From: Actinomycetota bacterium
Lineage (GTDB): Bacteria; Actinomycetota; Actinomycetes; Mycobacteriales; Micromonosporaceae
Direction: 5' to 3'
Length of the DNA: 64,000 bases
Assembly (NCBI GenBank): GCA_005885555.1
Contig: VAWN01000094.1
Location: forward strand, 62,001-126,000
Shown here piece after piece: positions 1-16,763 of the stretch. The position numbers and the translations under genes were made by a program. The notes under the pieces were generated by a model. That model was not told the origin of the DNA. It ran no database searches and saw only the letters and a program-made list of their open reading frames with translations. Each line of letters begins with the position of its first letter. The stretch's first letter is position 1.

Positions 1-1878
1 GTCGGGCCGGTCGCCCCGGCGGCCAGCGCGCTCGGCGAGCACTCCGTCGACCTGGTCGCCTTCATGGCCGGCTCGGCCGTGCTGTACCTGCTGGTGCTGG
101 CCCGCATCGTCGGCGTCGTCCGCCAGCACGAGCGCAGCCTGCACCGGGAACAGGACCTGCGGGCCCGCAGCCGCAGCAGCGAGCGGCGGTTCCGCGCGAT
201 CGTCGAAGCCTCCTCCGACATCGTCACGGTGTCCGACGCCGATGGCATGATCACCTGGTGCGCGCCGTCGATCCAGCGGCTCACCGGGTACCTGCCGGCC
301 GACCTGATCGGCCGCAGCCCGCGCGAGTTCGTCCATCCCGACGACGCGGCCACCGTCGACTACCTGGCTGAGGCGATCACCACCCGGGGTACCTCGGCGC
401 ACGCCGACTGCCGGCTGCGCATGCGCGACGGCACGTACCGCGTCTTCCAGGTCACCGCCCAGAACCTGCTCGCCGACCCGGACGTGGCCGGCGTGGTCCT
501 CACCGGGCTGGACGTCACCGAACGCCGGCAGCTGGCCGACGAGCTGCACCGGCGCGCGTTCTGCGACGAGCTGACCGGCCTGGCCAACCGGGCCCTGTTC
601 GCCGACCGGCTCCAGCACGCGCTGCTGCGCCGCAGCAGTCCGGCCGGTGACGTCGCCGTGCTCTTCGTCGACCTGGACGACTTCAAGACCATCAACGACA
701 GCCTCGGCCACCAGGCCGGCGACGACCTGCTGGTCCAGGTGGCGCGGCGGCTACCGGCGGCGCTGCGCCCGGCCGACACCACCGCGCGCCTGGGCGGCGA
801 CGAGTTCGCGGTGCTGCTCGAAGAGACCGACGAGGCGTACGCCGCACAGGTGGCCGGGCGGATCCTCACCGAACTCGCCAACCCGTACCGCGTCGACGGG
901 CGCGACGTGTTCATCGGCGCGAGCATCGGCCTGACCACCGGCCGGCACGGCGGCGACGAACCCGAGGTGCTGCTGCGCAACGCCGACATCGCCATGTACC
1001 AGGCCAAGCAGTCCGGCAAGAACCAGCACGCGGTGTACCGGCCGAGCATGCACGCCGCCGCCGTCGCCCGCCTGGAACTGCAGGCGGACCTGCAGCGGGC
1101 GCTGGAACGCGGCGAGTTCGTCGTGTACTACCAGCCGGTGACCGACCTGCGCACCGGCCGGCTGGTCAGCGTCGAGGCGCTGCTGCGCTGGCACCATCCG
1201 CAGCGCGGTCTGGTCAACCCGGCCGAGTTCGTGCCGCTGGCCGAGGAGTCGGGGCTCATCGAACCGCTCGGCCGCTGGGTGCTGCACGAGGCGTGCCGGC
1301 AGTTGCGCGACTGGCAGCGGCGCTTCCCGGCCCGGTTCAACGTCGCGGTCAACGTCTCGGTCCGCCAGCTGGCCGCGGCGGGCTTCACCGGCGACGTCGC
1401 CGACGCGCTGCGCCAGACCGGCCTCGATGCCGCGTACCTGATCCTGGAACTGACCGAGACCGCGTTCATGGCCGACGTCGACGCCGCCGAGGGCAAGCTC
1501 GCCGCGCTGCGCGACCTGGGTACCCGCATCGCCATCGACGACTTCGGCACCGGGTACTCGTCGCTGAGCTACCTCGACCGGTACCCCATCGACATGATCA
1601 AGATCGACCGGTCCTTCGTGGCGGCGCTGCCCCACCCGACCGGCGAGCCCACCCTGATCCAGATCATGCTGGACCTGGCCCGCCGGTTGGACCTGCCGAT
1701 CGTCGCCGAAGGCATCGAGAACGCCGAGCAGCTCAACACCCTGCGCCGCCTCGGCTGCGCCCTCGGCCAGGGCTTCCTGCTCGCCACCCCGCGGCCGGCC
1801 GAGGACATCAGCGCGATGCTCGCCGCGAGCCGGTACCTACACCTCGACCCGACCATGCCGACCGTCGCCGCCGCGTGA
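1..1878 (+). CDS. GGDEF/EAL c-di-GMP turnover protein with PAS domain (5' end outside window)
   Basis: The reading frame is open from the first base, so the true start lies upstream; the first internal ATG, at 64, falls inside a hydrophobic segment and is unlikely to be the start. The visible 625 residues hold the end of a membrane region (about residues 18-37), a linker, a PAS domain (about 60-170), a GGDEF domain and an EAL domain. GGDEF is intact (RLGGDEF) with an RxxD inhibitory site (RPAD) five residues before it. The EAL domain keeps SVEALLRW, NVSVRQL, ELTETAF, DDFGTGYSSL, KIDRSF, AEGIEN and GQGF. Both cyclase and phosphodiesterase activities therefore look possible; which dominates cannot be read from sequence. 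It is probably a membrane-anchored sensor. Its 3' end overlaps the convergent next gene. Confidence 0.93.
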   Translation, partial: VGPVAPAASALGEHSVDLVAFMAGSAVLYLLVLARIVGVVRQHERSLHREQDLRARSRSSERRFRAIVEASSDIVTVSDADGMITWCAPSIQRLTGYLPADLIGRSPREFVHPDDAATVDYLAEAITTRGTSAHADCRLRMRDGTYRVFQVTAQNLLADPDVAGVVLTGLDVTERRQLADELHRRAFCDELTGLANRALFADRLQHALLRRSSPAGDVAVLFVDLDDFKTINDSLGHQAGDDLLVQVARRLPAALRPADTTARLGGDEFAVLLEETDEAYAAQVAGRILTELANPYRVDGRDVFIGASIGLTTGRHGGDEPEVLLRNADIAMYQAKQSGKNQHAVYRPSMHAAAVARLELQADLQRALERGEFVVYYQPVTDLRTGRLVSVEALLRWHHPQRGLVNPAEFVPLAEESGLIEPLGRWVLHEACRQLRDWQRRFPARFNVAVNVSVRQLAAAGFTGDVADALRQTGLDAAYLILELTETAFMADVDAAEGKLAALRDLGTRIAIDDFGTGYSSLSYLDRYPIDMIKIDRSFVAALPHPTGEPTLIQIMLDLARRLDLPIVAEGIENAEQLNTLRRLGCALGQGFLLATPRPAEDISAMLAASRYLHLDPTMPTVAAA

Positions 1879-2349
1879 GCCGGACCCGCCGCGTGAGCCG
1901 GACCCGCTGACGGCACCGTTGCGCCGCAGCGCCCACCAGGTCAGCGGTACCCCGACGCACGCGGGAACCAGCCAGTACAGCAGGTGTGGCAGCCGGTCCC
2001 AGACCGGCAGGCGCGCTCCGTTGTCGACATAGAAGCCGGTGAACAGGGCGATGAAGGAGCCGGCCATGGCGCTGCCGTGCCAGGCCATCCACCGGCGTGG
2101 CCGGGCCCGCCGGACCACCCATCCGGCCGCGGCCAGCCCGGCCGCCACGGTCGCGATGAGGAACAGGTGCCAGTCCCGCTGCCAGTGCAGCGCCACCAGC
2201 ACCGTGGCGGTCGCGAACACCACACCGATCGCGTACAGGTACACCGTGCCGGCACGCGGGTGGCGGCCGGCCCGCTTGGGCGCGGTCGTCGCCAGGACAC
2301 CGGACACCACGGCGGTCAGGCCGGCGACGATATGGACCACGAGCAACAT
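1837..2349 (-). CDS. DUF2306-like multi-spanning membrane protein
   Basis: 170 residues with about five hydrophobic segments, histidines in or next to them (VHIVAG, LVALHW, MAWHGS) and a Gly/Ser/Arg-rich tail generated by an 18-bp tandem duplication. It resembles DUF2306-type integral membrane proteins of unknown function. The ATG sits exactly six bases after a TAGGAT -10 box, so the mRNA is probably leaderless. The gene is divergent from padR and shares a palindromic promoter-operator with it, which suggests PadR controls it. The 3' end overlaps the convergent GGDEF/EAL gene by 42 bp. Confidence 0.75.
   Translation of the reverse strand: MLLVVHIVAGLTAVVSGVLATTAPKRAGRHPRAGTVYLYAIGVVFATATVLVALHWQRDWHLFLIATVAAGLAAAGWVVRRARPRRWMAWHGSAMAGSFIALFTGFYVDNGARLPVWDRLPHLLYWLVPACVGVPLTWWALRRNGAVSGSGSRGGSGSRGGDGRHGRVEV
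1871..1906. repeat. 18-bp perfect tandem duplication at a stop codon
   Basis: The unit CCGCGTGAGCCGGACCCG occurs twice head to tail (1871-1888 and 1889-1906). The first copy contains the TGA stop of the GGDEF/EAL gene. On the other strand both copies are coding and give a repeated six-residue Ser/Gly/Arg unit near the C-terminus of the overlapping membrane protein. Confidence 0.95.
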
Positions 2350-2394
2350 GTAGCTATCCTACCTATCCAGCCCGCCGCGCGGTAGGATAGCTAC
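2350..2394. promoter_or_regulatory. Mirrored divergent promoter-operator (PadR site)
   Basis: Perfect 14-bp inverted repeat, GTAGCTATCCTACC at 2350-2363 and GGTAGGATAGCTAC at 2381-2394, with a 17-bp spacer. Each arm holds a TAGGAT (TANNNT) -10 hexamer facing its own gene: 6 nt before the ATG at 2349 on the minus strand and 8 nt before the ATG at 2397 on the plus strand. Both transcripts would be leaderless. PadR regulators commonly bind dyads over their own promoter, so this is the likely autoregulatory operator (inference). Confidence 0.8.
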
Positions 2395-2396
2395 TC

Positions 2397-2741
2397 ATGA
2401 GGTCCGACGCCCAGGCGCTCAAGGGGCACCTCGACGTGCTCCTGCTGGCCACCCTCGAAGACGGCCCCCGGCACGGTTACGCGGTCAAGGAGGCGCTGCG
2501 CGAAGGCAGCGGCGGCCGGTTCGACCTGCCGACCGGCACCGTCTATCCGGCACTGCACCGGCTGGCGGACGCCGGTCTCATCGCCGGCACCTGGTCGGTC
2601 ACCGACGGGCGGCGCCGCCGCAGCTACCGGCTCACCGCCGCGGGAAAGCGCAAGCTGGCCGGCGAGCGGGCCAACTGGCGCGAGTTCGCCGCCGCGGTCA
2701 CCACTCTTCTCGAAGGGGTACCGTGGCCAGCCACCAGCTGA
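2397..2741 (+). CDS. PadR-family transcriptional regulator
   Basis: 114 residues, the usual length of short (subfamily 2) PadR proteins. The winged helix is clear: LKGHLDVLLLATLEDGPRHG, a GTVYPALHRLADAGLI recognition helix, then the wing RRRRSYRLTAAGK. The ATG lies 8 nt after TAGGAT with no ribosome binding site, consistent with a leaderless message. The 3' end overlaps the next gene by 19 bp, so the two are co-translated. PadR proteins repress transport or membrane genes and release DNA on ligand binding; here the likely targets are its own operon and the divergent DUF2306-like gene. Confidence 0.93.
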   Translation: MRSDAQALKGHLDVLLLATLEDGPRHGYAVKEALREGSGGRFDLPTGTVYPALHRLADAGLIAGTWSVTDGRRRRSYRLTAAGKRKLAGERANWREFAAAVTTLLEGVPWPATS

Positions 2742-3295
2742 TCGACGCCTACCTCGGCTCGGTCGCGCCCCGGTTGCCCGCCGACACCGTCGACGAACTC
2801 GCCGACGGGCTCACCGAGACCTACCGGCGGCACCGGCGGGCCGGCCTCGACGCCGACACCGCGGCCCGGTCGGCGGTCCGCGAGTTCGGCGCACCCGACC
2901 TCGTCGTCGCCGCGTTCGTCCGCCAGTCGGCCGGCCGGCGCACCGCCCGCGCGCTGATGTCCACCGGACCGCTCGTCGGCCTGTGCTGGGCCGCCACGCT
3001 GGCCGCCGGCCACGCCTGGCGGTGGCCCGTCCCGGTACCGGTGCGGATCGCCACGGCCGCCACGCTGCTGACCGTCATCGCGGCCCTCGCGCTCGCCGCG
3101 ACCGCCCGCACCTGGCGCCGCACCCGCATCGCCGCGCTCGCCGGCCTCGGCCTGGTCGCCCTCGACGCGACCCTGGTCGCCGCGGTCGTCGCGCTACGCC
3201 CCGGTTTCGTGTGGCCGATGGTCCTCGCGGTGCCGGCCAGCCTCGCCCGGCTGGCGTTCACCGCGCGGTTTCTGCTCAGAGCACGCGCGTCATGA
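2723..3295 (+). CDS. Membrane protein co-translated with PadR
   Basis: 190 residues. The N-terminal 75 residues form a soluble helical region (LIDAYLGSVAPRLP through AVREFGAP) like the short domain that precedes the membrane part of many PadR-linked proteins. Three to four hydrophobic helices follow (about 75-180). The GTG start follows AAGGGG and lies inside the end of padR. The pairing of a PadR repressor with a small permease-prefix-type membrane protein is common in actinomycetes; its biochemical role is unknown. Its last 20 bp overlap the convergent GNAT gene. Confidence 0.75.
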   Translation: MASHQLIDAYLGSVAPRLPADTVDELADGLTETYRRHRRAGLDADTAARSAVREFGAPDLVVAAFVRQSAGRRTARALMSTGPLVGLCWAATLAAGHAWRWPVPVPVRIATAATLLTVIAALALAATARTWRRTRIAALAGLGLVALDATLVAAVVALRPGFVWPMVLAVPASLARLAFTARFLLRARAS

Positions 3296-3731
3296 ACACG
3301 CTGTGCGGGTCGAGCCGGTAGTCCGCGAACGGTTCGCAGTAGCCGAACCCGAACTTCTCGTACAGGCTGCGCGCCGGCCGGAAGAACTCCGCCGAGCCGG
3401 TCTCCAGGCTCACCCGGGTGTACCCCATCCGCCGCGCCTCGGCGAGGATGTGCTCCAGCAACCGCGACGCGACGCCGCTGCGCTTGCGGCCGGCCTTGGT
3501 ACACATGGATTTCAGCTCGGCGTGGTACCCGTCCAGTCGCTTGAGCGCGCCGCAGCCGACCAGGGTGTCGCCGTCGAGCACCGACCAGAACGTGATGCCC
3601 GGCCCGCGCAGGCCGTCGAGGTCCAGGGCGTGCTTGCTCTCCAATGGCGTGATGGCGCGCATCTCCTGCACGTGCTCGTCGAGGAACTCGGCGATCTGCG
3701 GACCGGACAGGTCGTCGACCACGATCTGCAC
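3276..3731 (-). CDS. GNAT-family N-acetyltransferase
   Basis: 151 residues, full length for a single-domain GNAT. The acetyl-CoA site is seen at AELKSMCTKAGRKRSGVASR (motif A, R-x-x-G-x-A form), and motif B at RPARSLYEKFGFGYCEPF. The N-terminal half (LSGPQIAEFLDEHVQEM, then TPLESKHALDLDGL) is close to the YsnE/ArgA-like small-molecule acetyltransferases. The substrate cannot be told. It lies 11 bp upstream of, and in the same direction as, the end of the alcohol dehydrogenase-like operon, so it may be its last gene. Confidence 0.88.
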   Translation of the reverse strand: MQIVVDDLSGPQIAEFLDEHVQEMRAITPLESKHALDLDGLRGPGITFWSVLDGDTLVGCGALKRLDGYHAELKSMCTKAGRKRSGVASRLLEHILAEARRMGYTRVSLETGSAEFFRPARSLYEKFGFGYCEPFADYRLDPHSVFMTRVL

Positions 3732-3742
3732 GGGACCTCCTT

Positions 3743-4711
3743 TCAGTCCATCGTCACGACCACGTTGCCCTGCTTGTGTCCGGCGTCCACCCGCCGGTGC
3801 GCGTCGGCGATGCGCGGCAACGGGTACCGCGCCTCGATGACCGGTACCAGTGTCGCCGCTTCGGCGAGTTCCTTGAGGTACCCCAGATCGTGGCGCTTGT
3901 CACCGGCGGAGCGCAGGCCGGTGAACGCGACGATCGCCCGGCGTGCCCCGAACCGCCTCGTCCACGCCATCTGGACGAATATCGCCGGGGACGGCGCGGT
4001 GGTCAGGTAGGTACCCGTCGGGCTGAGCGCGCGCCGGCAGCGCCGGAACGAACTGGCTGCGGCCACGTCGAAGATGACGTCCCAGGTGCGCCCGGTCCGG
4101 GTGAAGTCCTCGGTGGTGTGGTCGACGACGCTCTGCGCGCCGAGCTTGCGGACCAGCTCGGCGTTCGGCCCGCTGCACACCCCGGTGACCGTGGCGCCGT
4201 AGTGCTTCGCGAGCTGCACCGCCGCGACCCCGACCGCGCCGGACGCGCCGTTGACGAGCACCGTCTGTCCACTGTGGAGCTTTGCCTTGTCGCGCAGGAA
4301 GACCAGCGCCGTCGCGTCGGCGAGCGCGGCCGCCCCGGCGTAGTCCACAGTGGACGGTTTCGATGCCAGCGCGGCCTGTTCGGACAGCAGGACGTACTCG
4401 GCATGGGCACCGAACCGCGGTGCCGTGGTGCCGAAGACGTCGTCGCCGACCGCGAACCGGGTGACGTCCGGCCCGACGGCCTCCACCCGCCCCGCGAAGT
4501 CGTTGCCCAGCACGGGATTGCGTGGCCGCAGCAGCCCGAAGGCGGTCCGGGCGTACGCCGGGGAACCGCGCCGGGCCAGGCTGTCGACCACCCCGACGAC
4601 GGCCGCGCGGACGCGGACCAGTACCTCGTCGCCACGCGGTACCGGCGTCGGCAGGTCGGCGACGGTCAGCACGTCCGGGGTACCGAACCGGTGGTGTACG
4701 GCGGCTTTCAT
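3743..4711 (-). CDS. Zinc-free MDR-family NAD(P)H oxidoreductase (quinone reductase-like)
   Basis: 322 residues of the medium-chain dehydrogenase/reductase superfamily. The GroES-like half (VLVRVRAAVVGVVDS, NPVLGNDFAGRVEAVG) is followed by a Rossmann fold with VLVNGASGAVGVAAVQLAK. The catalytic-zinc cysteine and the structural-zinc cysteine cluster are absent, which points to the zeta-crystallin/quinone oxidoreductase branch. The start ATG overlaps the stop of the upstream HTH gene (ATGA). The operon order is small membrane protein, HTH regulator, oxidoreductase, GNAT. The substrate is unknown. Confidence 0.9.
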   Translation of the reverse strand: MKAAVHHRFGTPDVLTVADLPTPVPRGDEVLVRVRAAVVGVVDSLARRGSPAYARTAFGLLRPRNPVLGNDFAGRVEAVGPDVTRFAVGDDVFGTTAPRFGAHAEYVLLSEQAALASKPSTVDYAGAAALADATALVFLRDKAKLHSGQTVLVNGASGAVGVAAVQLAKHYGATVTGVCSGPNAELVRKLGAQSVVDHTTEDFTRTGRTWDVIFDVAAASSFRRCRRALSPTGTYLTTAPSPAIFVQMAWTRRFGARRAIVAFTGLRSAGDKRHDLGYLKELAEAATLVPVIEARYPLPRIADAHRRVDAGHKQGNVVVTMD

Positions 4712-16222: not shown

Positions 16223-16763
16223 CACCTCGGACCCGCTCAAGAGCACGAGTACACCGCCGAGTGCCGGCTAGCCGAGCCGAAAGCCTTGCCGCGTACGAGA
16301 TCCGTCCACGGTCGACCTCATTGTTGGCCTGGTGAGGGTCCGATTCTGCGGTACGCAAGGGTGTCCACTATGGACAGGCGGCTGGGTCAATGGGGGCGCT
16401 GGGAGCGGACAGTTGCTGTGGGAGGTGATCGTGGGCACTTCCACCAGCCCCGATCACGTGGTGATCGGGGCTGGTGCCCTGGAGGGACCGACAAGGGTGA
16501 GTGTTGTGTTGTGTCGCGGCCAGGTAGGCCAGTCACCCTTCGCTGTCGGGGTGGTGTGAGTCGGGTGACCTGCGCTGTCAGCGGGTCGGGGGTCGGACCC
16601 TCACGCCGGTACTCACGTCTGGAGAGGTCCCGGGGAGTACCCGGGTGAAGGTCTGAGTCAACGCCGAACCCAACCGGCCGGGTGTGAGACTCGGCCAACA
16701 GCCAAGATCGGCTCGGTGCGGACCGCCTTCGACCGGCCCACACACGGGCCGGGCGGAGGGGTG
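16223..16763. other. Non-coding stretch with strong palindrome
   Basis: No convincing gene over about 540 bp: open frames here lack homology, codon bias and ribosome sites. It holds a TGTCCACTATGGACA motif (16362-16376), a perfect 16-bp hairpin (16442-16476) and a GTCACCC/GGGTGAC inverted repeat near 16530-16570. It could be the control or attachment region of the inserted element. Confidence 0.5.
16442..16476. other. Perfect 16-bp stem, 3-nt loop hairpin
   Basis: CACCAGCCCCGATCAC is followed by GTG and then the exact reverse complement. There is no T-tract after it in either direction, so it is either a strong actinobacterial-type terminator or a protein-binding/processing site of the inserted element. 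Confidence 0.7.

Follow-up and report, generated by a model that had tools for sequence, protein, structure and literature searches.

Two predicted PadR operators, each joined to a leaderless-type promoter, between divergent genes of an actinobacterial HAAS-PadR-like locus

The stretch of actinobacterial DNA analysed here (64,000 nucleotides, hereafter the window) probably carries, at a rough probability of 0.75, an autorepressor locus of the HAAS-PadR type. Two complete predicted operators, each a TAG-N5-CTA unit that merges with a TANNNT -10 box and is set against a start codon, would place the padR-HAAS operon and a divergent membrane protein gene under joint repression (Table 1).

Table 1. 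Features of the predicted PadR locus (window positions).
Feature	Positions	Strand	Sequence	Basis or remark
Divergent gene, DUF2306-like membrane protein, 170 aa	1837-2349	-		BLAST cluster with other loci
Left arm of perfect 14-bp inverted repeat	2350-2363			
Left TAG-N5-CTA copy, predicted PadR operator	2351-2361		TAGCTATCCTA (on +)	Sequence and conservation beside padR relatives
Predicted -10 box of divergent gene	2356-2361	-	TAGGAT	Sequence; 6 nt before ATG
Outer TAT of left copy (CTAC-n-TAT)	2364-2366	+	TAT	Without counterpart in right copy
Right arm of perfect 14-bp inverted repeat	2381-2394			
Right TAG-N5-CTA copy, predicted PadR operator	2383-2393		TAGGATAGCTA (on +)	Sequence and conserved place in 51/62 loci
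Predicted -10 box of padR	2383-2388	+	TAGGAT	8 nt before ATG; TANNNT at same spacing in 51/62 loci
padR gene, 114 aa	2397-2741	+		PF03551, 79.9 bits (cut-off 27)
Downstream gene overlapping padR, permease-prefix/HAAS-like membrane protein, 190 aa	2723-3295	+		NF038403

The arms of the repeat were complementary at 14 of 14 positions across a spacer of 17 nt, and the centres of the two TAG-N5-CTA copies were 32 bp apart. A first-pass annotation had called the region perfectly mirrored, which is correct for the 14 bp and fails beyond them, where the left copy alone continues into an extra TAT. Within the window, TAG-N5-CTA occurred in the two arms and nowhere else, and perfect inverted repeats whose arms reach 14 bp or more, with gaps of 3–40 nt, were found at two places, 2350–2394 and 16442–16476, the latter with a short loop. 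Dinucleotide-preserving shuffles of the window (n = 60) contained a mean of 0.07 such repeats, and none of 20,000 shuffles of positions 2300–2449 contained one. When the 6.7-Mb genome was searched with at most one mismatch, TAGGATAGCTA matched the two arms only, compared with 15 matches for a backward-read control. The local shuffles and the whole-genome search together speak against a product of chance and against a dispersed repeat.

The forward strand reads GGTAGGATAGCTACTC-ATG into padR (start codon at 2397–2399) and the reverse strand reads GGTAGGATAGCTAC-ATG into the divergent ORF (start codon at 2349–2347), with 53 bp between the outer edges of the two ATGs. In-frame TAG codons lie 7–9 nt upstream of padR and 10–12 nt upstream of the divergent ORF; since these stops are no more than 12 nt away, an earlier start is impossible for either ORF and both ATGs are forced. 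Genes with TANNNT 6–9 nt before the start and no SD were taken as putatively leaderless, and TAGGAT was found at 8 nt for padR and at 6 nt for the divergent gene, the sole SD-like string before either ATG being the AGGA inside TAGGAT. Both transcripts are thus predicted to begin at or close to their start codons. The coordinates confirmed the annotated 14-bp repeat with a TAGGAT in each arm, 6 and 8 nt from the ATGs, as well as the packing of the predicted operator and promoters and the start codons into about 50 bp; the wider proposal of divergent promoters with leaderless-type spacing, lying under operator-like repeats beside a PadR gene (PF03551), was borne out at the level of sequence. No sigma-70-type consensus pair was found between positions 1200 and 4000. 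A -35 box for padR was sought and rejected, as none was present at a spacing of 16–18 nt and no TTG stood at the -35 spacing, unlike in 24 of 51 relatives, which have a TTG at the 17-nt spacing. Leaderless genes make up 26% of those with a primary start site in Mycobacterium tuberculosis, where the -10 motif is mainly TANNNT and no -35 is conserved (PMC3898074); more than a fifth of actinobacterial genes are predicted to be leaderless (PMC3160421).

The window PadR exceeded the gathering score of PF03551 and fell just below the NCBIfam TIGR03433 cut-off (97.5 against 101.8). Tyrosines Y28 and Y50 were noted in it by eye; the DNA-contacting winged-helix tyrosines of LftR are Y28 and Y48 (PMC6457526). 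The product of the downstream gene scored weakly with NF038403 (30.7 bits, cut-off 30) and had no Pfam HAAS match; a relative at another locus (L022) reached 16.1 against the Pfam HAAS cut-off of 27, and a GxP-like FGAPD was seen by eye. The BLAST cluster of this gene lay downstream of padR in 44 of 62 loci. For the divergent protein no family match of its own was obtained, DUF2306 (PF10067) failing to reach its gathering score and giving no match up to an E value of 10. Two relatives scored 33.4 (L038, above the cut-off of 31.6) and 26.6 (L063) with DUF2306, and the protein is accordingly described as DUF2306-like by resemblance and not counted as a member of the family.

A scan of contigs yielded 63 loci with padR relatives, one labelled Chloroflexi and the others actinobacterial. 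Two were dropped: L065, whose match lay at the edge of a contig, and L060, which lacked an LKGH in frame. The remaining 61 with the window make up the 62 loci, the counts from which are not independent owing to shared ancestry. A TAG-N5-CTA copy stood at exactly -14, 3 nt before the padR ATG, in 51/62 loci, the window included. The motif was concentrated there, with 140 copies in the 62 upstream stretches of 160 bp versus 8 in 401,805 bp of other locus DNA. In 45 of the 51 loci the -14 site runs as CTAC-n-TAT into the ATG; the window, with CTACTCATG, is outside this group. Upstream copies without an adjoining start codon favour the same outer TA-rich flanks (ATA/TAT), and together these two features suggest that the site may extend as far as the start codon itself. 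Covariation of the inner palindrome bases was not above that expected from column frequencies in the padR-side copies and was slightly above it in the upstream copies (0.52 observed and 0.40 expected for the pair flanking the centre). The predicted dyad is claimed for TAG/CTA and the outer TA-rich flanks only.

Eleven of the 62 loci had no -14 copy. Seven of them (L013, L014, L016, L017, L018, L020, and L025) carried a copy 27–37 nt upstream, L069, L051, and L052 had one further upstream, and in L067 none was found. At L013, L014, L016, L018, and L025, an ATG 3 nt after a TAG-N5-CTA copy opens a frame of 5–8 codons upstream of padR, which ends in a TGA overlapping the padR start (ATGA/GTGA); the frame differs in L020. 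Of the six loci with an ATG so placed, five have this short overlapping frame; it was not regarded as significant, as few lineages are involved and the frame has a chance of 1 in 3. In Pseudonocardia oceani, the padR upstream regions of L056 and L068, one on a contig of the chromosome and the other carried by plasmid pPoc1, were closely alike, which suggests that the module can move.

Two sets of more distant homologues were also inspected. The first (L110–L138, without L111–L114, which repeat loci already used) comprised 25, and the second comprised 20 hand-picked from 42 hits without a locus, at 45–58% identity and with starts assigned by a promoter-blind rule. The -14 copy was present in 8/25 and 4/20, and no copy occurred within 130–140 nt in 5/25 and 7/20, respectively. 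Upstream of padR homologues with 52–58% identity (L123, L124, L127, L128, L134, and L136), three to four TAG-N5-CTA copies were arranged with a 15-bp period.

The divergent gene of the window clustered with divergent genes of 24 other loci, L038 among them. Other partners formed clusters of 7, 6, and 3, which inspection by eye suggested to be ABC ATPases, PEP-utilising enzymes and MMPL transporters, these counts being rough because some of the “divergent ORFs” are spurious frames. At L046, L051, L052, L058, and L061 (and at L024 by cluster), a PEP-utilising enzyme-like partner replaces the DUF2306-like one and the operator copies stay. Pfam support for the PEP-utilising reading came from L058 only (PPDK_N, PEP-utilizers).

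Real operators bound by some other regulator, such as a PadR paralogue, are an unlikely alternative. From genome to genome the motif goes with this group of PadR proteins even where the divergent partners change, and no other locus of the genome has the exact 11-mer; on the other side, the genome of the window holds 10 further PadR-like matches, and upstream of its PadR paralogue L002 (38% identity) a TAG-N5-CTA copy stands at -50 relative to the assumed start. Cross-talk with this paralogue is possible. A wider regulon was considered and rejected: TAGGATAGCTA with at most one mismatch had no other match in the genome, and TAGNNTNNCTANNNATG had 38 matches in 61 genomes, fewer than the 57 that its backward-read control gave with just the forward strand counted. 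In the window's own genome, TAGNNTNNCTANNNATG matched once, at padR.

The arms were taken by the first-pass annotation as half-sites for one PadR dimer or dimer pair, which does not agree with the finding that each arm holds a whole TAG-N5-CTA unit. In 8 of the 51 loci with a -14 copy, that copy is solitary, with no other within 130 nt, and elsewhere the unit occurs in tandem pairs 15 bp apart or in longer arrays, which argues for two operators rather than half-sites. The arms look like two predicted operators, each for one dimer, and their mirror symmetry is the look of two copies with outward-facing -10 boxes. A single large operator, in which the 14-bp arms would be half-sites for one PadR dimer or a looped pair, fits the perfect complementarity of the arms and the centre-to-centre distance of about three helical turns, but it is decidedly improbable given the solitary units, the tandem pairs and the wide variation in the distance between copies among loci, from 25 to 65 bp.

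Leaderless-type spacing was widely conserved on the padR side. TANNNT was found 6–9 nt before the padR start in 56/62 loci, versus 48 of 6573 background ATGs, and the full geometry of TANNNT, 8 nt and ATG in 51/62. It was also found in 19 of the 20 homologues with promoter-blind starts; the value for the L110–L138 set (23/25) is biased, the start having been chosen with a preference for TANNNT. Among the 51 padR starts with a -14 copy, SD-like strings preceded six, the window included, and each was the AGGA of TAGGAT. On the divergent side, a GGAG-type SD preceded the start in 15 of 21 relatives examined, and 3 of 25 divergent genes yielded no core motif. Besides the window, TANNNT 6–9 nt before the divergent start was seen only at an alternative ATG in L044, a locus that also has an SD-led start close by. 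As the divergent relatives are mostly SD-led, the leaderless divergent start is not conserved. By this distribution, the arrangement predicted on the padR side is the old one, whereas the mirror form with two leaderless-type starts, encountered in the window alone, is a local variant.

TAG-N5-CTA is symmetric except for its middle base, which in the window is A at 2356 in the left copy (T on the reverse strand) and T at 2388 in the right copy. This base was T in 51/51 of the -14 copies, giving TAGNNT, with the T as the sixth base of a TANNNT -10 box that points toward padR. Upstream tandem pairs with a 15-bp spacing numbered 29. The copy nearer to padR carried A in 27 of them and G in the other 2, the A forming a TANNNT box on the opposite strand, toward the divergent gene; the distal copy had T in 17 and A in 12. 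When counted by genus-level label, with MAGs kept apart, T was found at -14 in 26/26 and the proximal A in 11/12. The window fits the rule on both sides. Among the distant homologues, tandem pairs had the proximal A in 3/6 only (L118–L120, with T in L126, L129, and L130), the padR-most copy of arrays of 3–4 copies had T or C, and padR mostly had a TANNNT box of its own downstream of the copies.

These patterns may reflect a composite element in this group of actinobacterial PadR regulators, a reading to which we give somewhat less than even odds. One palindrome would serve as operator, -10 box and start-codon edge, its asymmetric centre base would set the direction of the promoter, and copies mirrored or added in tandem would bring changing partner genes under one repressor. 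An A/T swap at the centre would then remove promoter function one way and may create it the other. The hold of the pair rule in only 3/6 distant pairs lowered our confidence both in this element and in the main reading given at the outset.

A transcription start further upstream, with the repeat acting in RNA as a leader stem-loop or bidirectional terminator, is very unlikely: a transcript that spans the region could fold into a stem of 14 bp with a loop of 17 nt, but no terminator-like site was found in 1200–4000, conserved single copies cannot build a stem, and the centre T obeys the logic of a promoter, not that of an RNA stem. A chance repeat without function, for which the perfect repeat of similar length at 16442–16476 might speak, is scarcely credible against the result of the local shuffles (0/20,000) and the conservation of motif, position and centre base alike.

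With two PadR operators as the preferred reading, one PadR dimer per copy would cover the -10 box and start site and exclude RNA polymerase, and PadR would in this way silence both the divergent DUF2306-like gene and the padR-HAAS operon that encodes PadR itself. Release of PadR would follow from a signal, perhaps relayed by the HAAS-like partner. The middle T of the palindrome, on either strand, would be the sixth base of the -10 box and fix the direction in which the promoter is used.

Searches of openly licensed full texts turned up no description of the TAG-N5-CTA operator, of an operator fused in this way with -10 box and start site, or of the centre-base rule. Going by titles and the beginnings of abstracts, none of the openly licensed texts containing the operator strings concerned PadR, and none of those with both “PadR” and “leaderless”, among the matches listed, concerned this arrangement. 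The repressor genes tetR of Tn1721 and lambda cI lie beside divergent, operator-controlled promoters, and they differ from the window in protein family and operator. Both are named as leaderless in the report on acuR-acuI-dddL of Rhodobacter sphaeroides (PMC3017554), where an autorepressor gene has a leaderless transcript and an inverted-repeat operator over its promoter, as predicted for padR here. AcuR, however, belongs to the TetR family and its operator is TAATAGAC-n6-GTCTATTA; acuR does not share its promoter region with a divergent gene that is leaderless too, and the accessible part of that text reports no direction rule (PMC3017554).

Closer in protein family are LftR, LltR, and LstR of Listeria, self-repressing PadR proteins of about 110 residues, as proposed for the window PadR, and small PadR proteins with membrane neighbours act as autorepressors in that genus (PMC6624303, PMC6457526). 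There, lltR is followed by a DUF1700 membrane gene, comparable to padR and its membrane gene in the window, and the promoter of lftR contains a partly palindromic site to which LftR binds; these systems differ in belonging to Firmicutes, and the sections available report neither a leaderless arrangement nor a TAG-N5-CTA operator (PMC6624303, PMC6457526). The HAAS-PadR dyad couples a PadR gene with a HAAS-type membrane partner, like the putative pair in the window, and has been proposed as an alternative to two-component systems, with HAAS partners proposed to pass signals to PadR; the proteins are defined there, but no operator is given in the available part (PMC11237479). Actinobacterial leaderless promoters have TANNNT close upstream of the start codon, as in the window (PMC3898074, PMC3160421). 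They are a general class, whereas the hexamer of the window sits inside a palindrome tied to one group of regulators. The leaderless autorepressor with its operator over the promoter (acuR, PMC3017554), PadR autorepression and the HAAS-PadR pair are thus already known. As a refinement of known principles, and not a new kind of regulation, the present analysis puts forward a specific candidate operator for one group of actinobacterial PadR regulators that are uncharacterised, uses a single base to predict the direction of the promoter, links autorepression with leaderless starts, and points to likely targets, the DUF2306-like gene and, in other genomes, transporter-like and PEP-utiliser-like genes.
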